Below are positions 4,980 through 35,326 of a stretch of DNA of 36,648 nt, in pieces. The notes beneath the pieces were generated by a model. That model worked only from the letters and a program-made list of their open reading frames with translations, searched no databases and had not been told where the DNA came from. The position numbers and the translations under genes were made by a program. The stretch comes from Pseudomonadota bacterium (GTDB lineage Bacteria; Pseudomonadota; Gammaproteobacteria; Burkholderiales; JAJZQI01): contig JAJZQI010000021.1 in the NCBI GenBank assembly GCA_021851875.1, forward strand, positions 1 through 36,648, written 5' to 3'. Position 1 is the stretch's first letter; the number at the start of each line of letters is the position of its first letter.

Positions 4980-6547
<1,568 letters not shown>

Positions 6548-6570
6548 CGACAACATACAACGGGCTCCGC

Positions 6571-7242
6571 ATGAGTGACGCAGACTGGAGCGCGGTCTAT
6601 CTGACGCTGAAGCTGGCCACCCTGACCACCGTGTTGCTGCTTCTGCTCGGCACCCCCATTGCCTGGTGGCTGGCACGCACGCGCTCACGCCTGAAAGGCG
6701 TGGTCGGGGCAGTGGTGGCCATGCCGCTGGTGCTGCCGCCGAGTGTCATCGGCTTCTATCTGCTGGTGCTGATGGGGCCAAACGGTCCGGTTGGTCAGCT
6801 GACACAATCGCTCGGCCTGGGTGTGCTGCCGTTTACCTTTACCGGCCTGGTGGTCGCCTCCCTGCTGTATTCGCTGCCATTCGTCGTCCAGCCGGTGCAA
6901 AACGCCTTCGAGGCAATCGGCGAGCGGCCGCTTGAAGTGGCCGCTACCTTGCGTGCCAGCACGCTGGATGCGTTTTTCAGCGTGATCCTGCCGCTGGCCA
7001 AACCGGGCTATCTCACCGCAGCGGTACTGGGTTTTGCCCACACGGTGGGCGAATTCGGCGTGGTGCTGATGATCGGCGGCAACATACCGGGGGCGACCCG
7101 GGTGGTGTCGGTGCAGATCTACGACCATGTGGAAGCGCTTGAATACGCCGAAGCCCACTGGCTGTCCGCCGGCATGCTGGTGTTCTCCTTCCTGGTGTTG
7201 CTGAGCATGAACACGCTGACCAACAGGAGAAAAACAGCATGA
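6571..7242 (+). CDS. modB: ModB, molybdate ABC transporter permease
   Basis: 223 residues, a five-to-six-helix inner-membrane permease. It opens with [20 protein letters not shown], the typical ModB N-terminus, and carries the cytoplasmic EAA loop near [20 protein letters not shown], ending with [20 protein letters not shown]. The stop overlaps the modC start as ATGA, so translation is coupled. Works with ModA and ModC to import molybdate for FeMo-co. Confidence 0.95.
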
Positions 7243-8315
7243 GCGAGCGCACGCTGACAGCCCGCTTCAAGCTGTCCCGGCCGGAGTTTGGCCTGGATGT
7301 CGATCTGGTGCTGCCCGGTCAGGGGGTGACGGCCCTGTTCGGTCATTCCGGTTCGGGCAAGACCACATTGCTGCGTTGTATTGCCGGGTTGGAGCGGGCC
7401 GAAGGCGTGCTGCAGCTGGGCGACGCCGTCTGGCAGGATGAGCGGACGTTCGTGCCGGTGCATAAGCGGCCGCTGGCCTATGTGTTTCAGGAAGCCAGTC
7501 TGTTTGATCACCTGAGTGTGCGGCAGAACCTGCAATACGGCCAGAAACGCGTGGCGCAGCAGGAGCGCAAGGTCAGCCTGGAGCAGGCGATCGAGCTGCT
7601 GGGTATCGGCCATCTGCTCGAGCGTATGCCGGCCCGCTTGTCCGGCGGGGAAAAGCAGCGTGTGTCGATTGCCCGGGCACTGGCTGTCAGCCCGCAACTG
7701 CTGCTGATGGACGAGCCGCTGTCGGCGCTGGATTTCGCCCGCAAACAGGAAATCCTGCCTTACCTGGAGCGGCTGCACGACGAGCTGGATATTCCGCTGA
7801 TTTATGTCAGCCACGCGCCCGATGAGGTCGCCCGGCTGGCCGATCACCTGGTGGCCATGGAGGATGGCCGGGTAACGGCGCAGGGGCCGATCCAGGACGT
7901 GCTGGCGCAACTGGATTCACCCATCCGGCTGGGCGACGATGCGGGAGTGGTGCTGGATGCCACCGTGGCCGAGCGCGACAGTCAGTGGCACCTGGCGCGC
8001 GCCGACTTCCCCGGCGGGCAGGTGTGGGTGCGCGACGGCGGGCAGGTCATCGGTCAACGTGTGCGCTTGCGTATCCTGGCGCGCGATGTGAGCGTGACGC
8101 TGGAGCCGCAGACGGGCAGCAGCATCATCAATGCCATTCCGGCCCGCATTGTCGAGCTGGTGGCAGACAACCACCCGGCATTGGCGCTGGTGCGCCTGCA
8201 GGCCGGCAGCATACCCATTCTTGCGCGCCTGACCAAACGCTCGGCCGCCGCACTGCACCTGCACCCCGGTCAGGCCGTCTGGGCGCAGGTCAAGGCGGTC
8301 GCGCTGGTGGGCTAA
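7239..8315 (+). CDS. modC: ModC, molybdate ABC transporter ATPase
   Basis: 358 residues. Walker [11 protein letters not shown]-loop around [13 protein letters not shown], signature [15 protein letters not shown], Walker [13 protein letters not shown] and switch His in YVSHAPDEV are all intact. The C-terminal ~100 residues form the regulatory mop/TOBE domain (from about [20 protein letters not shown]), as expected for ModC. It overlaps modB by 4 nt and converges with the next minus-strand gene 17 nt after its stop. Confidence 0.95.
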
Positions 8316-9050: not shown

Positions 9051-9386
9051 ATGATGGACTATGTGACGATCTGCCGCGAAAGCGGATTGCTGGAAGGTGA
9101 GATGGCCAACTTCATCATCCGCGGCAGGGAATTTGTGGTGGTCTGGCCGGAAGGCCGTGAACCGGTTGCGTTTGACAGTTTCTGTCCGCATCAGGGGCTG
9201 CCGCTGGGGCAGGGCCATTTCAACGGCAAGGTGCTGACCTGTCCGGCGCATCAATGGGCATTCGACGGTGTCGAGGGCCATGCCCTCAACGCCGACTGTC
9301 AGCTCAAACGCTATCCGCTGCGCGTCAGGGATGGTCTGGTGGAAGTGAAACTGCTGGCCTTTGGGGAGTTATACGACAATGAGTAA
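9051..9386 (+). CDS. Small Rieske-type [2Fe-2S] ferredoxin
   Basis: 111 residues with the Rieske cluster motif Cys-Pro-His (FCPHQGLPLGQG) and, 18 residues on, Cys-Pro-Ala-His (TCPAHQWAFDG), giving the two-Cys two-His ligand set. No transmembrane anchor or signal, so it is a soluble cytosolic ferredoxin like those serving dioxygenases or nitrite reductases. Overlaps the next gene by 8 nt. Context with a truncated hemoglobin suggests an electron donor in oxygen or NO handling; that is inference. Confidence 0.88.
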   Translation: MMDYVTICRESGLLEGEMANFIIRGREFVVVWPEGREPVAFDSFCPHQGLPLGQGHFNGKVLTCPAHQWAFDGVEGHALNADCQLKRYPLRVRDGLVEVKLLAFGELYDNE

Positions 9387-9783
9387 CCATACGGTGATCG
9401 GTGCCAATCCGCATTACGACAGTCTGGGCGGCGACGAGGCCGTGCGCCGGCTGGTCGACCGTTTTTACGACCTGATGGACGAAGACCCGGACTACTACGG
9501 TATTCGCAAGCTGCATCCGGCCGACCTGACCGAGTCGCGCAACAAACTGTACTGGTTTTTGTCGGGCTGGCTGGGCGGGCCGCCATTGTATACCGACAAA
9601 TTCGGTCACCCTTTTCTGCGTCAGAAGCATATGCCTTTCCCCATCGGCGAAAGCGAGCGCGATCAGTGGATGGGCTGCATGCAGCGCGCCATGGCGGATA
9701 CCGGTGTCGAACCGGCACTGCAGGAGGCCTTGCGTGCCGCCTTCTTCAAGACAGCCGATTTTTTGCGCAACCAGCCCGGCTGA
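9379..9783 (+). CDS. Group II truncated hemoglobin (trHbO/GlbO-like)
   Basis: 134 residues. Opens NPHYDSLGGDEAVRRLVDRFYDLM, here cited over residues ~8-31, with the KLYWFLSGWLGGPPLY and GHPFLRQKHMPFPIG segments of group II truncated hemoglobins. The proximal His is in RQKHM, and the conserved G8 Trp is in RDQWMGCM. GGGGAG precedes the ATG at 9379. Such proteins bind O2 or NO, and in a diazotroph may protect nitrogenase or detoxify NO. Overlap with the Rieske gene suggests a functional pair. Confidence 0.92.
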   Translation: MSNHTVIGANPHYDSLGGDEAVRRLVDRFYDLMDEDPDYYGIRKLHPADLTESRNKLYWFLSGWLGGPPLYTDKFGHPFLRQKHMPFPIGESERDQWMGCMQRAMADTGVEPALQEALRAAFFKTADFLRNQPG

Positions 9784-9978
9784 TTCCTGCTCGTCCGCTG
9801 CGCCTTACCGTCACCATCGCCAGTTTCCTGCCGCTGGAATAAAGCCCGCTTTTACCCCGTCTATTAACAACACGCCCTGACGCCGTGCGGACGACAGAAC
9901 CGTGCGGTTGTCTTGCTGCCTGACGTGTATTCATGCTGCATCACACACTTGCATAAAACACCAAGAAGGGAAGCACCA

Positions 9979-10992
9979 ATGAACATTCGAGTTGCGTTAT
10001 TTTCCGCAGTGTCTCTACTGACTTTGCTGGCTGCACCTGTCGCCGGTGCTGCCGAGGCGGGCACGGCCGCCGCGGCTGCCGGCGGCAAACTGGAAAAGAT
10101 TGCCGATGACCGCGAGCACGACATCCGCGTGTTCCGCCCCGACGGCAGCGATATCCAGGGCGAGGCCGCATTTGCCGCCATGCCCGGGGTTGATCTGGCG
10201 GTCTGGGTCGCCGGCAATCAGTTCTTCGCCATGCCCGACGTGATTCATGCGTTTCAGGCTCAGTTTCCCGCCGGCAAGAAGCCGGTGGTGGGGCTGATCA
10301 CCTTGCCGCCGGGCAAGGTGGTTTCAGCCATGCTGAACGGCGGCTGGCAATTCCGCGGTAAAACCCTGCGCGCCGTGCCGGATGTCTGGGGACAGGTGGC
10401 GCTCGAGCCGGCCGAACAATTGAAGCAGGCCGGCCTGGCGCAGGATTATCTGGTGTATATGCACAACCAGCTGGTGCTGATGGTGGCCAAGGGCAATCCC
10501 AAGCACGTGACGGGGATCGCCAGCCTGGGCCGCCGCGATTTGCACGTCATGCTGCCCAACCCGGTGAAGGAAGGCATCATGCGCGAATATGCCCGCAAGG
10601 TGCTGGAGCATCATGATCTGTGGCAAAGCCTGTCCGCCGGCAAGGAATGCGAAAGCTGCCAGGGGGCGCCCAATGTCTGGTTCACTTCGGTACACCACCG
10701 CGAGATTCCGGCTGCATTGCAGGCGGGCAAAACCGACGTTGGCATTGTCTGGGCCACCGAAGTGCAGAATGCGCTGAAGGACGGGGCGCAGGTGGATGCC
10801 ATTTCCCTGCCGCCGCAGGATAGCATGATCAACGATGTGAACTACTACGCCGGCAGCGTGCCGAACAGCGCCCATGCACAGCTGGCGCAAGCCTATCTGC
10901 ACTTCCTGGGCAGCCCGGCGGGGCAACAGGCCTATAGCCAACACGGCTTCCTGCCCGCCAGCAAAACGGACCTGCAGCAAAAATCGCTGTAA
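9979..10992 (+). CDS. Orphan periplasmic substrate-binding protein (ModA/PBP2-like)
   Basis: 337 residues. The signal peptide (MNIRVALFSAVSLLTLLAAP, cut near GAA) is followed by an Ala-rich linker and a type-2 periplasmic binding fold related to molybdate/sulfate-binding proteins: VDLAVWVAGNQFFAMPDVIH near residue 72 and TDVGIVWATEVQNAL near 252. A Cys-Glu-Ser-Cys pair (Cys224, Cys227) is unusual for this fold. AGAAGGGA precedes the ATG. There is no adjacent permease or ATPase; it could use ModBC or act as a sensor. Substrate unknown. Confidence 0.78.
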   Translation: MNIRVALFSAVSLLTLLAAPVAGAAEAGTAAAAAGGKLEKIADDREHDIRVFRPDGSDIQGEAAFAAMPGVDLAVWVAGNQFFAMPDVIHAFQAQFPAGKKPVVGLITLPPGKVVSAMLNGGWQFRGKTLRAVPDVWGQVALEPAEQLKQAGLAQDYLVYMHNQLVLMVAKGNPKHVTGIASLGRRDLHVMLPNPVKEGIMREYARKVLEHHDLWQSLSAGKECESCQGAPNVWFTSVHHREIPAALQAGKTDVGIVWATEVQNALKDGAQVDAISLPPQDSMINDVNYYAGSVPNSAHAQLAQAYLHFLGSPAGQQAYSQHGFLPASKTDLQQKSL

Positions 10993-26340: not shown

Positions 26341-26356
26341 TGTAACGTTCCTTACA
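26341..26356. promoter_or_regulatory. NifA upstream activator sequence for nifB
   Basis: Exact TGT-N10-ACA (spacer AACGTTCCTT), about 112 bp upstream of the predicted nifB transcript start. Its last base is the first of the nifA terminator stem. Confidence 0.82.
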
Positions 26357-26432: not shown

Positions 26433-26448
26433 TGGCACGGCGGTTGCT
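26433..26448 (+). promoter_or_regulatory. Sigma54 (-24/-12) promoter of the nifB operon, perfect consensus
   Basis: TGGCACG-GCGG-TTGCT matches the consensus at every defined position. Predicted transcript start near 26460, 40 nt before the nifB ATG. Confidence 0.93.
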
Positions 26449-26499: not shown

Positions 26500-28074
26500 A
26501 TGGAACAGCAAATCAGCGCAGCAGCGGAAGCAGCAATGCAGTCGGGCAAGACAGCAGAAGAGATCATGCAGGAAGTCGCCGAGCACAAGGGATGTGGTAC
26601 CAGTGGCGGCAGCGGCAAGGCCAGCTGCGGCTCCAGCGCCGGCAGCGGCGATCTGGCGCCGGAAATCTGGGAAAAGGTGAAAAACCATCCCTGCTACAGC
26701 GAAGAAGCACACCATCACTATGCGCGCATGCACGTTGCCGTGGCGCCGGCCTGCAACATCCAGTGCAACTACTGCAACCGCAAATACGATTGCGCCAATG
26801 AATCCCGTCCGGGTGTGGTGAGCGAAAAACTGACTCCGGAAGTGGCTGCCAAGAAAGTGCTGGCGGTGGCTTCCACCATCCCTCAGATGACCGTACTGGG
26901 CATTGCCGGCCCGGGCGATTCGCTGGCCAACCCGGCCAAAACCTTCAAGACCTTCGACCTGATTTCCCAGGTGGCGCCGGACATCAAGCTGTGTCTGTCC
27001 ACCAACGGTCTGGCACTGCCTGACCATGTGCAGGAAATCAAGAAATACAACGTCGACCACGTTACCGTCACCATCAATATGGTGGATCCGGAAGTGGGCG
27101 CCAAGATCTATCCGTGGATTTTCTGGAAGAACAAGCGTCTGACCGGCATCGAGGCCGCCCGCATTCTGCATGAGCGCCAAATGCTCGGTCTGGAAATGCT
27201 GACCGCCGAAGGCATTCTGGTGAAAGTGAATTCCGTGATGATCCCGGGCATCAACGACAAGCACCTGGTGGAAGTGAACAAGGCGGTGAAGAGCCGTGGC
27301 GCCTTCCTGCACAACATCATGCCGCTGATTTCCGCGCCGGAGCACGGCACCGTGTTCGGCCTGACCGGTCAACGCGGCCCGACCGCGCAGGAACTGAAAG
27401 CCCTGCAGGACGAGTGCGAAGGCGAAATGAACATGATGCGCCACTGCCGCCAGTGCCGTGCAGACGCCGTGGGTCTCTTGGGTGAAGACCGTTCTTCCGA
27501 ATTTACCGTGGAAAAAATCATGGAAATGGAAGTCGAGTACGACCTGGAAGGCCGCCAGAAATACCAGGAAGCCGTGGAAGCCGAGCGGCAGAAGGAATCC
27601 GAGGCCAAGCATGCCGAACTGGCCGATTTGAGCGACGAATTCGCCGGCGTGAAGATGCTGGTTGCCATCGCGACCAAGGGCGGCGGTCGCATCAACGAAC
27701 ACTTCGGCCACGCCAAGGAGTTCCAGATTTTCGAACTGTCCACCCAGTCCGCCAAGTTTGTCGGTCACCGCCGCGTCGATCTGTACTGCCAGGGCGGCTA
27801 CGGCGATGAGGACTCGCTGGAAACCGTGATCCGTGCCATCAACGACTGCCATGCCGTGTTTGTCGCCAAGATCGGCGGCTGTCCCAAGGCCGATCTCAAA
27901 GCCGCCGGCATTGATGCGGTGGAAGAGTACGCGCACGAGTTCATTGAACAGTCGGCTCTGCGTTACTTCAAGGATTACCTCGGCAAGATCAAGAGCGGCG
28001 AAATCGTCCACGTTGAAAAGGGCGACGCCACCATCCGCCAGGGTGCCTTTACGCAGGAATCGGCTGCAGCCTGA
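26500..28074 (+). CDS. nifB: NifB, radical SAM NifB-co synthase with C-terminal NifX-like domain
   Basis: 524 residues. A Gly/Ser/Cys-rich N-terminus is followed by the radical SAM motif C-x3-C-x2-C (Cys85, Cys89, Cys92, within [14 protein letters not shown]) and [18 protein letters not shown]. The barrel ends near [16 protein letters not shown]. An acidic helical linker leads to a NifX-type domain ([20 protein letters not shown] onwards, ~385-510). It fuses two 4Fe-4S clusters with a SAM-derived carbide to make NifB-co. First gene of a long plus-strand operon. Confidence 0.97.
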
Positions 28075-28343: not shown

Positions 28344-28763
28344 ATGGAACTGGCAATTACATCTTCGGCGGCAAAATTCATTCAGCGGATGATCCGCTTC
28401 AACGGCACCGGAGCGGAATCCGGCTTCCGCCTGATCGTTTCGCCCGGCGGTTGCTCCGGACTGTCGTCCGAGTTCACGGTCGAAGCCGGTCCGCTGGATG
28501 GCGATGCACTGGTTGTGGTGGACGGCGTCCGGCTGTTTCTGCCGGCGGAAAGCCGCATCCTGCTGCATGGCGCAACCATCGATTTTGCCGACACGACCAT
28601 GAGTACCGGTCTGACGTTCAAGACGGCCACTCCCGGTTCCTGCGGTTGCAGCAGTTCCAGCAGCTCCAGTACAGAGTCCAGTGGCAGCTGCAGCAGCTCG
28701 GCGGGTAGTGCGGCGCCGAGTGTTGCCAGCGTCGCCATCAGCGCTATCGGCCGCAAGGCCTGA
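28344..28763 (+). CDS. HesB/IscA-like protein with Ser-rich tail
   Basis: 139 residues. The A-type fold is seen in residues 1-95: SSAAKFIQRMIRFNGTGAES, PGGCSGLSSEFTVEAGP and the C-terminal GSCGCSSSS, so the three cysteine ligands are kept. After that comes a low-complexity tail of mostly Ser/Ala/Gly with one more Cys. This matches the nif-associated HesB-like proteins placed after nifB-fdxN. Probably carries an FeS cluster for nitrogenase maturation; third A-type gene in the window. Confidence 0.88.
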   Translation: MELAITSSAAKFIQRMIRFNGTGAESGFRLIVSPGGCSGLSSEFTVEAGPLDGDALVVVDGVRLFLPAESRILLHGATIDFADTTMSTGLTFKTATPGSCGCSSSSSSSTESSGSCSSSAGSAAPSVASVAISAIGRKA

Positions 28764-28772
28764 GGGGGTGTC

Positions 28773-29288
28773 ATGCTGGGGATGGATCTTGCCGAAATGG
28801 AGTCTGCCTGTCTGGGCGGGGGCTTGCCCCCGGCCGCAGAAGAACAGATACGCCTGGCTGGCAAGTTCTATCACCAGTATGACCTTGCCCACGATTATCT
28901 GGCGCGGGCGCAGCAACTGGCGCCCGACCATCTGGCGGTAATGATCGGTTTTTACCGCTTTTATTTCTACCAGAACCGTCTGCCCGAGGCGCGTGAGGTG
29001 GCCAAGCAATGTCTGCATCATGCCGCCAAAGCGCTGGGGCTCGCGACAGATTGGCAAGCCATCCAGCCCGAGGATGCCGATTTCAGCCAGTGGGATTCCG
29101 TCTTGCCGCGTTTTTACCTGTTCACTCTGAAGGGCTACGGCTACCTCAGCCTGCGCCTGGGCGACATGGAAACGGGTGAAAGTATCATCACCAAACTGCG
29201 CCAACTCGATCCGCTGGATCGGCTGGGCGGTTCCACTCTCAGCAACGTGCTGGCAAGGATCGGCCATGACGACTATGCCGAAGACTGA
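28773..29288 (+). CDS. TPR-like nif-associated protein (paralogue of the protein at 11521)
   Basis: 171 residues of helical repeats: AGKFYHQYDLAHDYLARAQQ, then IGFYRFYFYQNRLPEAREVA, then FYLFTLKGYGYLSLRLGDME and KLRQLDPLDRLGGSTLSNVL. The same order of motifs occurs in the minus-strand gene at 11521-12000. GAGGGGGTGTC precedes the ATG. No signal or metal motif. It ends inside the next gene (23-nt overlap). Likely a protein-interaction scaffold in FeS or cofactor assembly; partner unknown. Confidence 0.82.
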   Translation: MLGMDLAEMESACLGGGLPPAAEEQIRLAGKFYHQYDLAHDYLARAQQLAPDHLAVMIGFYRFYFYQNRLPEAREVAKQCLHHAAKALGLATDWQAIQPEDADFSQWDSVLPRFYLFTLKGYGYLSLRLGDMETGESIITKLRQLDPLDRLGGSTLSNVLARIGHDDYAED

Positions 29289-30087
29289 CGCCGGCGAAGA
29301 AAACATCGCCGTTGTCGACTGGCTGGGTCAGCCGATCGATTGCAGCCGCTGCAGTCATGCCGACCTGTTGGCCGCGGGCAAATGCCGGCCGGGGCATGCC
29401 TGCGTGCAGGATCGCTACGCCAAGCGCATCGACCGCTTTTTTCACTGGAATCGGGATCTGGCCAATACCTACCTGTCGCACCCGTATTTCGAGGTGCGCG
29501 CAGTGGGAGCCAAATACGCCAGCATTTTCCATCTGGGCAAGCTGGTCAAGGATCCCGATGAAACTGTCCGCATGAGCGTGGCCATGCGTCTGCCGGAAAA
29601 ATACCTGCTGGGCATGCGCAACGATCCGCACCGCGAGGTGCGCATTCGCGTGGCATCGAGGCTTACAGGCGGCGAACTGGCTCCCATGCGGCACGATGAA
29701 GACTATTACGTACGCATGCTGGTGGCGCGCAGGCTGCCGCCCGACATGCTGATTCTCATGCTGGACGACCCCGAGCCGCTGGTACGGGTCGAGGTGGCGC
29801 GCCGTATTCCGGTACAGCGCTTGCCGTCGCTGGCGGCCGATCCGGACGGCGCTGTACGCCTTGCCGTGGCCGAGCGGCTGGAGCCGGAGCAACTGGTGCC
29901 GCTGTTGCAGGATGAAGACTGGCGTATCCGCTATCAGGCGGTTGAACGGGTGAGCGTGGCGCATTTGTGGCCGCTGCAGGCAGACAGCGACCCGGAAGTG
30001 CGCCGGCTGGTGCAGGAGCGGTTGGGATTGATAGACGAACAGAAAGAAAGGCAGGCAGGCAATGGCAAAGATTTCGCGCGACAGTGA
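29266..30087 (+). CDS. Leucine-rich repeat variant (LRV) protein with N-terminal 4Fe-4S motif
   Basis: 273 residues from the ATG at 29266, which has AAGGA six bases upstream. The N-terminus holds Cys-x2-Cys-x11-Cys-x5-Cys (CSRCSHADLLAAGKCRPGHAC, read at ~23-44), the FeS4 motif of the LRV protein crystallised from A. vinelandii. About eight LRV repeats of ~24 residues follow, each with an Asp-Pro/Asp-x-hydrophobic-Arg-x3-Ala-x-Arg-Leu pattern (DPDETVRMSVAMRLP, DPEPLVRVEVARRIP). The superhelix probably docks partner proteins. It overlaps both neighbours, so the operon is tightly coupled. Confidence 0.9.
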   Translation: MTTMPKTDAGEENIAVVDWLGQPIDCSRCSHADLLAAGKCRPGHACVQDRYAKRIDRFFHWNRDLANTYLSHPYFEVRAVGAKYASIFHLGKLVKDPDETVRMSVAMRLPEKYLLGMRNDPHREVRIRVASRLTGGELAPMRHDEDYYVRMLVARRLPPDMLILMLDDPEPLVRVEVARRIPVQRLPSLAADPDGAVRLAVAERLEPEQLVPLLQDEDWRIRYQAVERVSVAHLWPLQADSDPEVRRLVQERLGLIDEQKERQAGNGKDFARQ

Positions 30088-30412
30088 TGTTGTCGAGTTG
30101 AACAGTCCGCCGATTTTCAATTACGGCGACAAGGTACGCTCACGCAAGACCATTCGTAACGACGGCACATTCAACGGTCGTGACATCGGCGAGGTGCTGG
30201 TGAAGAAGGGCGATTACGGTTACGTCACCAGCATCGGCTCATTTTTGCAGCAGTTTTACATCTACGGCGTCGACTTCGTCGAGTACGGCTACAGCGTGGG
30301 CATGCGCGGCAAGGAGCTGGAATTGTTCGACCCGCCGGCCGAGGTGGCAGCGGAAACTACAACCGAAGCAGAAGGAGAGCAGCATGATCGACCAGCGACT
30401 GCCCAAGTATGA
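30062..30412 (+). CDS. nifZ: NifZ (first of two adjacent NifZ-domain proteins)
   Basis: 116 residues. FNYGDKVRSRKTIRNDGTFN and DYGYVTSIGSFLQQFYIYGV with FVEYGYSVGMRGKELEL are characteristic of NifZ, which helps form the second P-cluster in the MoFe protein. The C-terminal ~20 residues are Ala/Thr/Glu-rich. Start overlaps the LRV gene by 26 nt; its own end overlaps the second NifZ gene by 29 nt. Confidence 0.93.
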   Translation: MAKISRDSDVVELNSPPIFNYGDKVRSRKTIRNDGTFNGRDIGEVLVKKGDYGYVTSIGSFLQQFYIYGVDFVEYGYSVGMRGKELELFDPPAEVAAETTTEAEGEQHDRPATAQV

Positions 30413-30629
30413 CTGGGGCCTGAAAGTCAGAACCACCATTGACCTGTTCAACGACGGCAGCTACCCGGACCGCGAACCGGAAGCACTGCTGGCAGCCGAA
30501 GGTTCGCAAGGTGAAATTGTGCAAGTTGGCACCATCGAAGAGCACAACGTACCCATCTACCTGGTTGAGTTTACTGACGGTGCGGTAGTCGGCTGTCTGG
30601 AAGAGGAAATCACGCCCACCATGGCGTGA
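30384..30629 (+). CDS. Second NifZ-domain protein
   Basis: 81 residues. WGLKVRTTIDLFNDGSYPDR and SQGEIVQVGTIEEHNVPIYL with EFTDGAVVGCLEEEITP follow the NifZ domain pattern (basic beta strand, Gly-x-x-Val-x-Val-Gly, partner-binding beta strands). A strong AAGGAG supports the start, although it lies inside the first nifZ in another frame. Two consecutive NifZ domains may act together as a heterodimer or be a split form of a two-domain NifZ. Confidence 0.82.
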   Translation: MIDQRLPKYDWGLKVRTTIDLFNDGSYPDREPEALLAAEGSQGEIVQVGTIEEHNVPIYLVEFTDGAVVGCLEEEITPTMA

Positions 30630-30649: not shown

Positions 30650-31000
30650 ATGGCCCGCTTCCCGGCACCTGTCGCCCTGGCCCGTCAGCCCAATGAGGTG
30701 GACAAGCGCCGCATCGAGAAGGCGCTGCAGGGGCGCAAGCGTTACCGCTATGTAACGCCGCAGGTGCAGTACGTTGACCGGGGTTACCGCATCGTCAGCC
30801 CCTGTTGCTCGCGCAACATCGACCCGGACGGCGGCATTGTGGATGTGGCACGCATCGAATACGTTGAAAGCACGCGTTACTGGTTCCTCTATCGCAAGAA
30901 CCATGACGAAGGGTTGTGGATGCTGCACGGCGAATTCACCACGCTGGATCGCCTGCTGGCCACGTTGAACGAAGATCCAACGAGGGTATTCTGGCAATGA
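30650..31000 (+). CDS. Unknown protein between nifZ and nifS
   Basis: 116 residues, family not identified. Basic N-terminus (DKRRIEKALQGRKRYRYVTP), then YRIVSPCCSRNIDPDGGIVD with a Cys-Cys pair, then RYWFLYRKNHDEGLWMLHGE and TLDRLLATLNEDP. Probably soluble alpha/beta. The stop overlaps the nifS ATG (ATGA), so it is translated with nifS and may work in sulfur transfer; that is context only. Confidence 0.75.
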   Translation: MARFPAPVALARQPNEVDKRRIEKALQGRKRYRYVTPQVQYVDRGYRIVSPCCSRNIDPDGGIVDVARIEYVESTRYWFLYRKNHDEGLWMLHGEFTTLDRLLATLNEDPTRVFWQ

Positions 31001-32142
31001 ACCACTACATATATCTGGACAACAACGCCACCAGCCGGCCGAGCGCAGAGTGCATCGAGGCCGTATATGCCAGCATGCATGGCGGTTATGGCAACCCTTC
31101 AAGCAAGCACCTGTTCGGCGACAACGCGCGCCAGCTGGTGAACGATGCGCGCAAACAGGTGGCGGCGCTGGTCAATGCTGCCCCGGCGGAAATCGTCTTC
31201 ACCTCCGGTGCCACCGAATCCAACTACATGGCCGTCATGGCCGCGCGTGAGCTCAACCCGGGCCGCAATCATGTGGTGCTGAGCGCCATTGAACACCCGT
31301 CCGTGCTGGCGCTGGTCCGCACACTGGAACAGCAGGGCATGCGCGTCAGCCTGGCGCCGGCCGATGCACAGGGGCGTGTCGATCTGGCTGCCTTGAGTGC
31401 GCTGCTGACGGACGACACCGCCCTGCTCAGCCTGATGTGGGCCAACAATGAAACCGGTGTGCTGCAACCGCTCGAGCAGGCGCTGGGCATGGCGCACGCG
31501 CGCGGCATTCTGGTGCACAGCGATGCCGTGCAGGCCGTCGGCAAAGTGCCGGTGGATATCACCGCCGTGCCTATCGACCTGATGTCGTTCACGGCCCACA
31601 AGATGCACGGCCCCATGGGTATCGGTGCGCTGTATGTGCGCAAAGGCATCAAATTGCCGGCATTGTTCGATGGCCATCAGGAACGTCGCCGCCGTGGCGG
31701 TACGGAAAACGTGCCGGGCATTGTCGGCTTCGGCGTGGCCTGCGAGCTGGCAGGCGAACAACTGGCTGAAGAAGCGCTGGTCATTGCCCGTTTGCGTGAC
31801 CGGCTGGAGCAGGGGGTCGTGCGTGACGTGCCGTTTGCCACCATCAATGGCGCCAAGTCGCCGCGCATCCCCAACACCACCAGCATTACCTTCGGCACTT
31901 TACCGGCCGAAGCATTGCTCTCGCGCATGGAAAAGGCCGGCATTTACGCTTCGCAGGGGGCGGCCTGTGCCGCCGGTCAGGTAGAGCCGTCGCATGTGCT
32001 GCTGGCCATGGGCCTCAGTGAAGCGAAGGCGCTGGCAACCGTCCGTTTTTCCCTCAGCCACGAAACCACCGAAGAAAAGATCGACCAGGTGCTGCGCATC
32101 CTGCCCGAACTGATCGGCGCCATGGCGGGGATGGCGGCTTAA
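30997..32142 (+). CDS. nifS: NifS, cysteine desulfurase (nif-dedicated)
   Basis: 381 residues. IYLDNNATSRPSAECIEAVY opens the fold, the PLP Lys is in LMSFTAHKMHGPMGIGALYV, and the catalytic Cys is in YASQGAACAAGQVEPSHVL. The Cys environment (GAACAAG) and shorter C-terminus differ from IscS in this window and fit NifS. It delivers sulfur for nitrogenase cluster building, normally to NifU, which is not seen here; IscU is the likely acceptor. Start overlaps the preceding stop. Confidence 0.93.
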   Translation: MNHYIYLDNNATSRPSAECIEAVYASMHGGYGNPSSKHLFGDNARQLVNDARKQVAALVNAAPAEIVFTSGATESNYMAVMAARELNPGRNHVVLSAIEHPSVLALVRTLEQQGMRVSLAPADAQGRVDLAALSALLTDDTALLSLMWANNETGVLQPLEQALGMAHARGILVHSDAVQAVGKVPVDITAVPIDLMSFTAHKMHGPMGIGALYVRKGIKLPALFDGHQERRRRGGTENVPGIVGFGVACELAGEQLAEEALVIARLRDRLEQGVVRDVPFATINGAKSPRIPNTTSITFGTLPAEALLSRMEKAGIYASQGAACAAGQVEPSHVLLAMGLSEAKALATVRFSLSHETTEEKIDQVLRILPELIGAMAGMAA

Positions 32143-32174: not shown

Positions 32175-32384
32175 ATGAAGATCATGCTGCGCAAAACCAC
32201 CGACGGACTGTCTGTTTACGTTCCGAAAAAGGATCTGGAGGAACCCGTCGTCAGCATGGACAAGGACTCCATGTGGGGTGGCGTGGTCACCCTGGCAAAT
32301 GGCTGGCGTCTCGAGCTGCCGGACATGGCCGACGACACGCCGCTGCCGATCACTGTCGATGCCAAGAAACTCGGGGAGGAATAA
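32175..32384 (+). CDS. nifT: NifT (FixU)
   Basis: 69 residues: MKIMLRKTTDGLSVYVPKKD followed by LEEPVVSMDK and MWGGVVTLANGWRLELP, the standard NifT/FixU pattern. AGGAA precedes the ATG. The role of NifT is not defined; deletion has mild effects in studied diazotrophs. Sits after nifS rather than after nifK. Confidence 0.92.
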   Translation: MKIMLRKTTDGLSVYVPKKDLEEPVVSMDKDSMWGGVVTLANGWRLELPDMADDTPLPITVDAKKLGEE

Positions 32385-32387
32385 GTC

Positions 32388-32657
32388 ATGTTAGCCCAGG
32401 ATGTACTGCAAGCCATTGCCACCGATCTGAACGGCAGCGCGTCCATCCGGGCGCAACTGCCGGCCATGCGCACGCGCCACCCCGGCGTGACCTTCAGCTG
32501 CTGCGATGCGAGCGACATGTCCGGCGAAGAGCCGTATCTGGCCCAGGCCGCATTTAATATTTACCTGATTAACAGCGATGGTCACTGCTGGCATATGACG
32601 GGCGATCCGGAACATGCCACCGGTGTGGTGATAGCGGAAAAGGCGGTGAAAAAATGA
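32388..32657 (+). CDS. Unknown 89-residue protein after nifT
   Basis: Strong GGAGGA before the ATG, which is 3 nt after the nifT stop. Sequence LAQDVLQAIATDLNGSASIR, then RTRHPGVTFSCCDASDMSGE, then NIYLINSDGHCWHMTGDPEH. It has a Cys-Cys and a Cys-Trp-His group, so metal binding is possible. The stop overlaps the next start as ATGA. Family not recognised; position suggests a nif accessory. Confidence 0.75.
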   Translation: MLAQDVLQAIATDLNGSASIRAQLPAMRTRHPGVTFSCCDASDMSGEEPYLAQAAFNIYLINSDGHCWHMTGDPEHATGVVIAEKAVKK

Positions 32658-33808
32658 CCCCCGATACCATTTTTCTCACCGACCCGGACATGTCGGCCAA
32701 CGAACTGTCCACTTTGGAATCGGTTTTGAAAACACCGCGCCTGAGTATGGGGCCGGTGACCGAGCTGTTCGAGAATACGTTCGCCAGCTACGTCGGCCGC
32801 AAATACGGCGTGGCCGTTTCCAGCGGCACTATTGGTTTATGGCTGGTACTGCACGCCTACGGCATCGGGCCGGGCGATGAAGTCATTACCTCGCCGATTT
32901 CCTGGACACAAGTTTCTCATGCGATCACCCTGTGCGGCGCCAAGCCCGTGCTGGCGGACATCGATTACTGGACCGTGACGCTCTCGCCGCTGAAAGTGGC
33001 TGAAAAAATCACCCCCAAAACGCGCGCCATTCTGGCCGGCAATACCAACGGCCATCCGGCGCATTGGGAAGGGCTCACCGCACTGGCACAAGAGCACAAT
33101 CTGCTGTTGCTGGAAGATTCCTGTGAAGCCATCGGTTCACGCTACGGCGGCAAAATGGTGGGTAACTTCGGCGATTGCGCCGTATTCGATTTTTCCCAGC
33201 CCAGCGCGCTGACCTGCGGCGAAGGCGGCATGATCCTCACCGATGACATCGAGATCGCCCGCAAACTGCGCTATATGCGCAATCGCAAGCTGGAAGACCG
33301 CTTCGCTGCTCCGGTGACGGCTTTCCCGCCGCTGCAGGCCGGTATCAGCGAAGTCACTGCGGCTCTGGCTTTTGCCCAGCTCTCGCGCATTGAGCAGATC
33401 CTGGAAAACCGCAAAAAGGTCGAAGGCTATTATCTCAACCACGTGCAAACCTTCGAGGGCATCAAGCCCCCCTACATCGCCCCCGAGGTTGATGAGGTGC
33501 ACTGGTTCCTTTATGTGGTTCACCTCGGCACACGGTTTTCCAAAAGCAGCCGCGACGCCATTCTCAGCGATCTTAAATTGCACGAAGTGGAAGCGTATGC
33601 GTTGTGCCAGCCCATGCACATGCAGTACCACTATCAACAGCAGCATGGCTACAAGAAAACCGATTTCAAGGTAGCTGAAAAAATTGCGGACCGCGCCCTG
33701 GCGCTGCCGTTCCACGCACATCTCGCAGAAGATGAAGTGGGATTTATCGTCGAAACCGCCAAGGATGCTTCAATCAACATCGGGGCGGGGTCAGCGATTT
33801 ATCTGTAG
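32654..33808 (+). CDS. DegT/DnrJ/EryC1-family protein lacking the PLP lysine
   Basis: 384 residues. The fold-type I aminotransferase pattern is intact: YGVAVSSGTIGLWLVLHAYG, GDEVITSPISWTQVSHAITL and the PLP-phosphate/pyridine region LLLLEDSCEAIGSRYGGKMV with its Asp. In the segment FDFSQPSALTCGEGGMI, the family normally reads F-x-F-H-x-x-K-x-x-x-x-G-E-G-G; here Ser184 replaces that Schiff-base lysine. It could be a non-transaminating PLP/PMP enzyme or a structural protein. It is coupled to the upstream gene (ATGA) in the nif operon, so it is not obviously a sugar gene. Confidence 0.85.
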   Translation: MTPDTIFLTDPDMSANELSTLESVLKTPRLSMGPVTELFENTFASYVGRKYGVAVSSGTIGLWLVLHAYGIGPGDEVITSPISWTQVSHAITLCGAKPVLADIDYWTVTLSPLKVAEKITPKTRAILAGNTNGHPAHWEGLTALAQEHNLLLLEDSCEAIGSRYGGKMVGNFGDCAVFDFSQPSALTCGEGGMILTDDIEIARKLRYMRNRKLEDRFAAPVTAFPPLQAGISEVTAALAFAQLSRIEQILENRKKVEGYYLNHVQTFEGIKPPYIAPEVDEVHWFLYVVHLGTRFSKSSRDAILSDLKLHEVEAYALCQPMHMQYHYQQQHGYKKTDFKVAEKIADRALALPFHAHLAEDEVGFIVETAKDASINIGAGSAIYL

Positions 33809-33841: not shown

Positions 33842-34054
33842 ATGACAACCGACGCAATGATTCATGTAGTTTTTGCCCCTGACGGGAGCGTGGTCAATAT
33901 CGCCCACACTCCCACCAACGTGGAGCCGCAAAAATGGTTCAATTTTCTCACACGCAATACGACCAACGCCTACGAGGCCCTGTCCGGCGGTCGCGGAGTT
34001 TTCCGCCTGCCCACCGACGATCTGGGTCGACTGCAAAGCGCCTACGCAGCGTAA
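33842..34054 (+). CDS. Unknown 70-residue protein before the 2Fe2S ferredoxin
   Basis: AAGGAAG before the ATG. MIHVVFAPDGSVVNIAHTPT, then VEPQKWFNFLTRNTTNAYEA and RGVFRLPTDDLGRLQSAY. It looks like a small alpha/beta protein without cysteines. Family not recognised. In the same operon as the DegT-like and ferredoxin genes. Confidence 0.72.
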   Translation: MTTDAMIHVVFAPDGSVVNIAHTPTNVEPQKWFNFLTRNTTNAYEALSGGRGVFRLPTDDLGRLQSAYAA

Positions 34055-34162: not shown

Positions 34163-34468
34163 ATGCCTAACATTACCGTAAAACCGAGTGGCAACGTTGT
34201 CGCAGCTGCCAGCGGCAGCACCCTTCTCGCCGCCCTGCTGGGCGCCGGCGAACCCATCGCGCACAAGTGCGACGGCAAGGCCGAATGCGGCTCCTGCCAC
34301 ATTTTCCTGCTGGAAGGCCGCAAAGGCGTGTCCAAAATCACCCCTGCTGAGAACGCTAAACTCGACAGCATCGTCGGTGTCGGTTCCAAGTCCCGTCTCG
34401 CCTGCCAGGTTACTCTGGGCGACGAAGACGTGACGGTCGAGCTGCTCGGCTTCGCTTCGGGCTTCTGA
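34163..34468 (+). CDS. [2Fe-2S] ferredoxin, nif-associated
   Basis: 101 residues. AHKCDGKAECGSCHIFLLEG gives Cys-x5-Cys-x2-Cys, with a fourth Cys in SRLACQVTLGDED, a plant/adrenodoxin-like fold. It is related to the Fdx at 19034 but shorter at the ends. Start follows AGAAGGACGAG. Likely an electron carrier for nitrogenase or its assembly. Expressed with the SIR2-like gene 21 nt downstream. Confidence 0.92.
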   Translation: MPNITVKPSGNVVAAASGSTLLAALLGAGEPIAHKCDGKAECGSCHIFLLEGRKGVSKITPAENAKLDSIVGVGSKSRLACQVTLGDEDVTVELLGFASGF

Positions 34469-34489: not shown

Positions 34490-35326
34490 ATGTCCGCCAT
34501 CGAAACGATCATTAACGGCCTTGAACAGGGTCAAATCATTCCTTACCTCGGTTCCGCCGTACTTGAACTGGTCCCCGGTGGCAGTCCCGTGGCCGCCTCG
34601 CCCGAGGCGCTGGCAGCAGAGCTGACGGCCAAGGTGTCCGTGCCTTTCAAGGTGCGCAAACAACTGACCGGCGCTGCCCAGTTCATCGAGAACTTCAAGC
34701 ACCGCAAGACCATTGTGAAACTGATGGACGAAGCCTTCGCCGCATCGGTCGCGCCTACGGCTTTGCAGAGCTATCTGGCCTCGCTCGGCCTGCCGCTCAT
34801 CGTATCCACCTGGTACGACAACGCCATGGAAAATGCCATGCAGGGTCAAGGCAGCTGGGGCATCGCGCAGGGCCTGTCGCAGTCCGAACACTTTGGCGAG
34901 TGGGTGGGCTGGTACCGCCCTGACGGCAGCCCGGCTACCGCAGCCGATGCGGATAGCTGGAAAACCCTGCTGTACCACCCGATCGGCTCCATCAGCCCGG
35001 CGCACAATTATCTGGTGTCCGATTCCGATTACGTTGAGGTGCTGACGGAAATCGATATTCAGACGCCGATTCCGGAAAAGGTGCAGAGCATCCGCAGCGG
35101 ACGCAATTTCCTCTTCCTCGGCTGTTCCTTCAAGAGCCAGCTGGAAAGAACCTTTGCCCGCCAGATCATGAAACGTTCCTCAGACAAACACTGGGCTGTC
35201 ATCACCGGCGAATTGAGCCGCAATGAGAAGCGCTTCCTGGAAGAGCAGAACATCACGCCAATCGACATGAAGCTGGCCGACTTTGCCGATCTGCTGCTGC
35301 AGAAACAGCAGGCGGTGGCTGCCTGA
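34490..35326 (+). CDS. SIR2-like domain protein at the end of the nif operon
   Basis: 278 residues. The order of motifs follows the SIR2-like (SIR2_2) family: IIPYLGSAVLELVPGG (16-31) for the Gly-rich NAD loop, LIVSTWYDNAMENAM (103-117) where the family has TTNYD, YHPIGSI (162-168) around the catalytic His, and FLFLGCSFKSQLERTFARQI (207-226) for the last Gly-x-Ser element. The Asn of TTNYD appears to be Trp here, so NAD hydrolysis may be lost. No extra domain. Preceded by GGAGACGGCC, 21 nt after the ferredoxin. Function in nitrogen fixation unknown. Confidence 0.75.
   Translation: MSAIETIINGLEQGQIIPYLGSAVLELVPGGSPVAASPEALAAELTAKVSVPFKVRKQLTGAAQFIENFKHRKTIVKLMDEAFAASVAPTALQSYLASLGLPLIVSTWYDNAMENAMQGQGSWGIAQGLSQSEHFGEWVGWYRPDGSPATAADADSWKTLLYHPIGSISPAHNYLVSDSDYVEVLTEIDIQTPIPEKVQSIRSGRNFLFLGCSFKSQLERTFARQIMKRSSDKHWAVITGELSRNEKRFLEEQNITPIDMKLADFADLLLQKQQAVAA

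Follow-up and report, generated by a model that had tools for sequence, protein, structure and literature searches.

A DegT-fold protein without the pyridoxal phosphate lysine in proteobacterial nif operons

GDP-perosamine synthase makes an amino sugar through pyridoxal phosphate (PLP) chemistry. Here we describe a DegT-fold protein that resembles this enzyme in its predicted structure, but which lacks the PLP-binding lysine and is encoded among nitrogen fixation (nif) genes. The gene lies on contig JAJZQI010000021.1 of a Pseudomonadota bacterium (order Burkholderiales; assembly GCA_021851875.1). We will call this contig, at its full length of 36,648 nucleotides, the window; it is contig C18 of a 2.68 Mb draft genome in 52 contigs.

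The papers that we cite by PMC number were available in part, and what we say of them refers to those passages. In Spr1654, the phosphate of PLP is bound by Thr59 and by Ser194, which is five residues before the Schiff-base lysine (Lys199); Asp170 is at the pyridine N1, His173 is at O3', and Tyr84 is stacked on the ring (PMC5936713). We used Spr1654 to assign the roles of the equivalents of Ser179, Asp155, and aromatic residue 84 in our protein. Some DegT-fold relatives do without the lysine: the dehydratases ColD, E1, and SpnQ have histidine in its place and use pyridoxamine phosphate (PMP), and E1 and SpnQ need electron-transfer partners (PMC8987622).

A nif-linked DegT gene has been reported before. 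BRADO5411, a "putative Aminotransferase, DegT/DnrJ/EryC1/StrS family", and BRADO5410, a 2Fe-2S ferredoxin, are listed among the nitrogen-fixation genes of nod-independent bradyrhizobia (PMC3899966). The gene is already in print there as a "putative aminotransferase", and the available passages do not mention the missing lysine. In the literature that we found, which left subscription journals mostly outside its coverage, this is the only paper to mention the gene by name in connection with nif; within the same coverage there was no mention of the missing lysine or the changed phosphate site, and no nitrogen-fixation mutant of the gene. The gene is also absent from the available passages of PMC9769520, PMC9412634, PMC8305402, PMC3912193, and PMC3169532 (the last gives conserved hypothetical genes by number only). 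Two papers that contain both "DegT" and "nitrogenase" (PMC9009326 and PMC12440964) proved to be unrelated when we checked the terms.

A missing lysine and a remodelled cofactor site

The gene and its key positions are:

32654..33808, + strand: the nif-linked DegT-fold protein that lacks the PLP lysine (open reading frame with ATG start, 384 amino acids; PF01041)
33188..33190, + strand: codon 179, Asp replacing the phosphate-binding Ser (alignment of the nif clade with ordinary DegT proteins)
33203..33205, + strand: codon 184 (AGC), Ser replacing the Schiff-base Lys (alignments)
33776..33805, + strand: C-terminal tail specific to the clade, residues 375-384 (hardly varies among clade members; 34 other DegT rows have mostly gaps here)

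The protein matches PF01041 over residues 12-368 (E = 1.3e-90), and all 81 members of the nif-type alignment match this family, which indicates homology to DegT/DnrJ/EryC1/StrS proteins. When aligned with HMMER, Ser184 is opposite the lysine in the motif "fgnKiiTtGEGGM" of GDP-perosamine synthase (3bn1), and the K186A mutant of that enzyme (3dr4) has its alanine at this position. Contig C39 of the same genome encodes a second copy of the protein, which is 94% identical and has the identical motif, FDFSQPSALTCGEGG. Because the second copy carries this motif too, Ser184 is not a sequencing slip; together with the homologs described below, it rules out chance or sequencing error.

We scanned genome contigs with a profile from an eight-sequence alignment and kept the best 80 of 292 related stretches. 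In the first table of homologs, none of the 88 nif-type rows has lysine at position 184 (45 Ser, 32 Gly, 5 Leu, 4 Phe, 1 Ala, and 1 Val). The sole lysine in that table is from L003, an ordinary DegT paralog from the same genome as the window (28% identical). More broadly, we found 98 nif-type loci, which gave 92 distinct rows, including the query, once near-identical or short sequences were dropped, with identities down to 44%. Again, none has lysine (46 Ser, 32 Gly, 7 Leu, 4 Phe, 1 Ala, 1 Val, and 1 Gln, the last in L098). In contrast, the Schiff-base lysine is present in all 29 of the ordinary DegT proteins that we compared, which are L003 and the 28 best-scoring proteins from a sample of 120 genomes. 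An earlier note on this DNA had reported the serine at codon 184 where the family has lysine, and had proposed aligning the nif-linked homologs; the substitution is borne out and extends to the whole clade.

The two groups are well separated by score: the weakest full-length nif-type row has E = 1.6e-96, versus 7.7e-52 for the best ordinary DegT protein from the 120 genomes. The best ordinary DegT protein from any search is in genome G580 (E = 1.1e-65). It keeps the lysine, and none of the 13 other genes of the window was matched within the 10 kb that we fetched around it.

We also considered whether the Schiff-base lysine might have shifted. Four lysines are near-invariant in the clade (K114, K271, K343, and K370; 81 rows), and judging by sequence, none of them is within the active-site loop. 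We rejected a shifted lysine on this basis, and the earlier note's concern that another lysine might occupy the Schiff-base position found no candidate.

The changes go beyond residue 184. Residue 179, where the phosphate-binding serine is expected, is Asp in 92/92 nif-clade rows and Ser in 29/29 ordinary DegT proteins. (The serine is not absolute among lysine-bearing DegT proteins: G580 has alanine five residues before its lysine.) Similarly, residue 226 is Pro in 87/92 of the clade versus Gly in 28/29 ordinary proteins, and residue 228 is Gln in 84/92 versus Asn (15) or Lys (14). Other parts of the site are kept: Asp155 in 92/92 rows, an aromatic residue at position 84 in 91/92 (52 Trp, 37 Phe, and 2 Tyr, with 1 Leu), Glu190 in 87/92, and Thr59 in 86/92. 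Asn130 (92/92), Ser156 (91/92), and Gln182 (88/92) are also conserved. Glu158 is invariant in the clade, while ordinary rows mostly have His or Gln (Glu in 4/29); perosamine synthase also has Glu.

We defined clade-specific fixed residues as those found in at least 95% of the 92 nif rows and in at most 10% of 34 others. They include Tyr105, Trp106, Asn130, His134, Trp138, Ser156, Asp179, Gln182, and Pro183; farther along, Phe267, Glu268, Lys271, His290, Gly292, Arg294, Phe295, and Asp306; and, in the tail, Asn375, Ala378, Gly379, Ala381, Ile382, and Tyr383. This looks like the pattern of a protein that has changed and yet is constrained. The earlier note understated the case: rather than one odd residue, a whole family has a remodelled cofactor site.

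The earlier note had compared the missing lysine to PMP-using dehydratases such as ColD, and this analogy did not hold up. We fetched six RfbH/E1-type loci, of which five were readable (L142 was left out because of its reading frame). All five have His184 and keep Ser179, Gly226, and Asn228, but the nif clade does not keep this set, and His184 occurs in 0/92 of its rows. The E1/RfbH proteins show that loss of the lysine need not disturb the phosphate site, whereas in the nif clade both have changed. We also built a quick tree with IQ-TREE from 64 rows, including 30 of the 92 nif rows and the five RfbH rows (ColD was not included). A single branch separates the 30 nif rows from all others, with support of 100 by the Shimodaira-Hasegawa-like approximate likelihood ratio test (SH-aLRT); its stem has 1.28 changes per column, and the tree carries a warning about long branches. 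The five RfbH rows group elsewhere (SH-aLRT 100). With the histidine absent, the phosphate serine lost, and RfbH separate on the tree, we rejected a ColD/E1-like dehydratase as the identity of this family.

To compare folds, we used an AlphaFold2 model of the monomer without ligand, built from 81 rows (mean predicted local distance difference test score, or pLDDT, of 90; predicted template modelling score of 0.91). According to Foldseek and VIA-align, the best matches in PDB are sugar aminotransferases, and GDP-perosamine synthase entries rank first. The match to 3bn1 has a VIA Z of 46.3 and a root-mean-square deviation of 2.4 over 364 residues, at 34% identity, and covers residues 2-374. So the type I aminotransferase fold is intact in the model. 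Among predicted structures of viral proteins, the significant matches to the model were all distant PLP-fold proteins. Residues 377-384 of the tail have pLDDT below 50. Since the tail is near-invariant yet disordered in the monomer model, it may dock on the dimer mate, on the mate's pocket, or on a partner.

Operon context, distribution, and selection

The nif operon setting that the earlier note gave for this gene is confirmed by the flanking nif genes. These run on the + strand in the order listed below, with the DegT gene between DUF6129 and orfX, and the row from nifB to SIR2_2 is probably a single transcript.

26341..26356, + strand: NifA-type upstream activator TGT-N10-ACA (pattern match, 144 bases 5' of nifB)
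26433..26448, + strand: sigma-54 -24/-12 promoter element TGGCACGGCGGTTGCT (exact match, 51 bases 5' of nifB)
26500..28074, + strand: nifB, at the head of the probable operon (Radical_SAM and Nitro_FeMo-Co domains)
28344..28763, + strand: HesB/IscA-like protein (PF01521)
28773..29288, + strand: tetratricopeptide repeat (TPR) protein (TPR_19)
29314..30087, + strand: 4Fe-4S leucine-rich-repeat-variant (LRV) protein (PF05484, PF01816)
30062..30412, + strand: nifZ copy 1 (PF04319)
30384..30629, + strand: nifZ copy 2 (PF04319)
30650..31000, + strand: DUF3024 protein (PF11225)
30991..32142, + strand: NifS-like cysteine desulfurase (PF00266; TIGR03402 with E = 4.7e-139 and 463 bits, under the model's cut-off of 531)
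32175..32384, + strand: nifT (TIGR02934, PF06988)
32388..32657, + strand: DUF6129 protein (PF19624; its last 4 bases overlap the start of the DegT gene)
33842..34054, + strand: orfX, 70 amino acids, family not assigned (homolog in 59/84 loci)
34163..34468, + strand: 2Fe-2S ferredoxin (PF00111)
34490..35326, + strand: SIR2_2-domain protein (PF13289)

The sigma-54 element has 3 exact matches in the window, versus 0.11 expected, and none of 100 shuffles had 3 or more. The activator pattern matches 16 times across the window, versus 6.0 expected, and one shuffle reached 16. As the earlier note had supposed, the DegT gene is coupled to genes of unknown function, with DUF6129 overlapping it upstream and orfX, which had no match in Pfam or NCBIfam, downstream. 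Elsewhere in the window, 3' of nifQ, are molybdate-type transport genes (a TOBE regulator, a binding protein, a permease, and an ATPase), a Rieske protein, and a second solute-binding protein (4980-8315 and 9051-10992).

To describe the gene neighborhood, we used 84 loci: 80 named loci, the second copy from the same genome, and three plasmids. In 82 of these, nifB, nifS, nifT, or nifZ is within 6 kb of the DegT gene. The other two loci, L017 and L082, start only a little way 5' of the gene because the contig ends there, and contain DUF6129, SIR2, and ferredoxin (L017 also contains orfX). The nearest detected gene 5' of DegT is DUF6129 in 80 loci and nifT in the other four. One of those four is from P. 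sprentiae, which, like P. aromaticivorans, has a hypothetical gene in DUF6129's place. SIR2 is present in 81/84 loci, DUF3024 in 77/84 (usually after the second nifZ), and the ferredoxin in 72/84. In a sample of 398 genomes from the phylum, 41 contain nifT and six, including that of the window, contain a DegT hit at E = 1e-80; all six are among the 41.

The nif-linked DegT is under strong purifying selection. Between the two copies in the genome of the window, dS (synonymous divergence) is 0.65 and dN (nonsynonymous divergence) is 0.029, for a dN/dS of 0.044; the ratios for other duplicated genes are 0.049 (NifS), 0.064 (SIR2), 0.073 (LRV), and 0.10 (DUF6129). (nifB was left out because its codons were out of register.) Also, 56 columns are invariant in 81 rows that span Alpha-, Beta-, and Gammaproteobacteria.

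The two copies belong to diverged segments that run from nifB to SIR2, at 26500-35326 of C18 and 211-9040 of C39 (L090). In this genome we found just one nifH and one full nifD, both on contig C48. An old duplication, a transfer, or a mixture of strains within the assembly, whose contamination is 2.77%, could account for the two segments.

Among the small neighbors, DUF6129 was aligned for 70 of 78 sequences (77 loci and the window). All of these share Asp43 and Cys67, and nearly all have Cys39, Asp40, and His66; together these residues possibly make up a metal site. The DUF6129 model (pLDDT 86.5) had no match in PDB from Foldseek at E = 0.001 or better, which does not by itself make it a new fold. 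In nif clusters without DegT, DUF6129 also follows a gene that matches part of NifB, which we read as NifX/NafY-like. Some nif clusters that lack DegT (L139 and L140) contain the SIR2_2 gene as well, and orfX is also near DUF3024 in G133, whose genome lacks a nif-type DegT. In R. capsulatus, the proteome of a nifA double mutant did not include Rcc03262, a "SIR2 family protein" encoded beside NifT (PMC6925177).

We examined Bradyrhizobium more closely, using the 166 genomes of the genus to which G293 belongs; we take this genus to be Bradyrhizobium because two of the hits have the same positions as the named loci L087 and L089. Of these, 110 contain nifD, 94 contain nodA, and 63 contain a nif-type DegT (64 before G580 was dropped). 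The nif-type DegT is present in 62/110 genomes with nifD and in 1/56 without it. Among genomes with nifD, it is present in all 16 that lack nodA (in G498 as a partial match), versus 46 of the 94 with nodA (Fisher p = 4.9e-5, not corrected for kinship). The nodulation clusters without DegT may lack other accessory genes too. Broken copies occur in two genomes with nodA: in G586 the gene breaks at residue 184 into matches in two different frames, and in G615 it has an internal stop. A plasmid of Bradyrhizobium BWA-3-5 also has a copy that matches in two frames, and no gene is annotated there. Four genomes have two nifD genes. In G574, G588, and G599, DegT is on the contig of only one of them, and in G574 and G599, the nifD without DegT is on the same contig as nodA; in G537, DegT is near both.

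For comparison, strain DOA9 has two nif sets, of which the chromosomal one is needed in the free-living state (PMC6066989). The operon of BRADO5414, 5416, 5418, and 5424, which are neighbors of BRADO5411, is shared with A. caulinodans ORS571 and is absent from USDA110 and S. meliloti (PMC3899966). When 25,000 Tn5 mutants of ORS278 were screened for nodulation, only BRADO3272 overlapped the strain-specific set that includes BRADO5411 (PMC3899966), so in those passages no nodulation defect is tied to BRADO5411.

Possible roles in nitrogen fixation

Since the nif-linked DegT is strongly preserved, a non-classical role in making or running nitrogenase is probable. The earlier note had offered altered chemistry or a non-enzymatic partner in nitrogenase assembly; a non-classical role is the likelier reading. 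We propose that the protein is probably a pseudo-aminotransferase that serves as an accessory in the assembly of nitrogenase, or of its Fe-S clusters or iron-molybdenum cofactor (FeMo-co). A DegT-fold protein whose closest structural match is GDP-perosamine synthase would have been recruited into proteobacterial nif operons. Its cofactor site would then have been dismantled, with the Schiff-base lysine lost, an invariant Asp replacing the phosphate serine, and Pro and Gln replacing the Gly and Asn/Lys of the other loop. The fold and the ring-holding Asp and aromatic residue would have been retained, and a conserved tail gained. The protein would lack PLP and PMP, would be co-translated with the DUF6129 protein in an operon controlled by NifA, and would most likely act without PLP transamination, by docking to a partner, or as a chaperone or scaffold, at some step of assembly. 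It might matter most for fixation outside of legume nodules. The protein is very probably not a PLP transaminase, and it seems likely that it binds no B6 vitamer whatever; that it works mainly through protein contacts is a view toward which we only lean.

Several observations weigh against parts of this proposal. The ring, or a B6 vitamer, could still bind to the nif-clade protein because Asp155, the aromatic residue 84, Thr59, and Glu190 are kept. The protein is no universal nif factor: 35 of the 41 phylum genomes with nifT have no DegT hit at E = 1e-80, and the R. capsulatus operon nifB1-rcc03265-nifZT-rcc03262, as described in part in PMC6925177, shows no such gene. The pairing with DUF6129 is not obligate either. 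The nif clusters of G025, G100, and G162 have DUF6129 without DegT, and G209, with a DegT homolog of 44% identity, has no detectable DUF6129; these four cases weaken the idea of DUF6129 as an obligate partner. Because the G209 homolog keeps the tail, it is also hard to see DUF6129 as the sole partner of the tail. As for a free-living emphasis, 46 of the 94 Bradyrhizobium genomes with both nifD and nodA do carry DegT, and neighbors of the gene are up-regulated in bacteroids of A. caulinodans, from which the authors infer a symbiotic role (PMC3899966).

The retained ring contacts also leave room for a B6 enzyme. The protein might hold PMP or PLP non-covalently and carry out a lysine-free reaction (a ColD/E1-like dehydration or half of a transamination) on a metabolite linked to the nitrogenase cofactor. 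Lysine-less relatives that use PMP do exist, namely ColD, E1, and SpnQ, and the ferredoxin gene that is found in most of the loci recalls the electron-transfer partners of E1 and SpnQ (PMC8987622). Nevertheless, we consider this unlikely. The charge of the invariant Asp179 should repel the phosphate, while the five E1/RfbH proteins keep Ser, Gly226, and Asn228, and the nif clade is apart from RfbH on the tree. Also, the seven types of residue at position 184 imply that no fixed acid or base has replaced the lysine.

A pocket rebuilt for another ligand is somewhat easier to accept, but we doubt it as well. In this case the ligand might be a non-phosphorylated aromatic compound, a metal, or an intermediate of the nitrogenase cofactor, which Asp155, Glu158, and Asp179 would coordinate or hold by hydrogen bonds, and the protein would act as a carrier, as a sensor, or as a novel type of enzyme. 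The changes in the pocket region are fixed rather than decayed (notably Asp179, Asn130, and Glu158 in every row, with Ser156 and Gln182 close behind), and the slow evolution within the clade that follows its long stem suggests a precise new function. But the conserved polar residues could simply plug an empty pocket. It is highly improbable that the gene is a functionless passenger decaying in the nif island. The broken copies in G586, G615, and the BWA-3-5 plasmid, and the 48 of 94 Bradyrhizobium genomes with nifD and nodA that have no DegT, are what a passenger would leave. In general, though, this idea is contradicted by purifying selection (the low dN/dS and the 56 invariant columns) and by the constant position of the gene within the operon; it may be locally true of certain nodulating strains.

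We offer the following as a tentative speculation. The vacated B6 pocket (Asp155, Glu158, Asp179, Asn130, and Gln182) and the dockable tail might together have been rebuilt as a ligand or metal site, which would handle or sense a nitrogenase-specific intermediate when the cell, and not the nodule, protects or supplies nitrogenase.

Comparison with described systems

Nitrogenase assembly is an engineering target, and the list of helper parts outside of the model diazotrophs is incomplete. The aminotransferase annotation of this widespread and strongly conserved nif-operon protein appears to be contradicted by its residues. Correcting the annotation would take a false enzyme out of metabolic models, and it would put forward a testable helper, along with DUF6129, for nitrogen fixation. 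The family also plainly illustrates that a PLP fold can persist after both the lysine and the phosphate-site serine are lost.

Like the accessory proteins NifZ and NifT, the nif-linked DegT would be a nif-encoded helper from the same operon. NifZ and NifT belong to other Pfam families and are much smaller, while the nif-linked DegT has the large aminotransferase fold.

BRADO5411 from Bradyrhizobium ORS278 is very likely the same gene, given its name and its nif neighborhood (a 2Fe-2S ferredoxin, NifZ, LRV, TPR, and SufA-like proteins; PMC3899966). It was matched by name and neighborhood instead of by alignment, and in that paper it is annotated merely as an aminotransferase.

The PMP 3-dehydratases (ColD, E1/RfbH, and SpnQ) are also DegT-fold relatives without the PLP lysine (PMC8987622). 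E1/RfbH proteins differ from the nif clade in that they have His for Lys, keep the equivalents of the serine, Gly226, and Asn228, and have another position on the tree; ColD and SpnQ we compare by their descriptions only.

Finally, GDP-perosamine synthase from Caulobacter crescentus (3bn1, 3dr4, and 3dr7) shares with the nif-linked DegT its fold, the ring-side Asp, and the Glu three residues later. Unlike the nif clade, it has the lysine and the serine five residues before it, and its match to the model ends ahead of the nif-clade tail.

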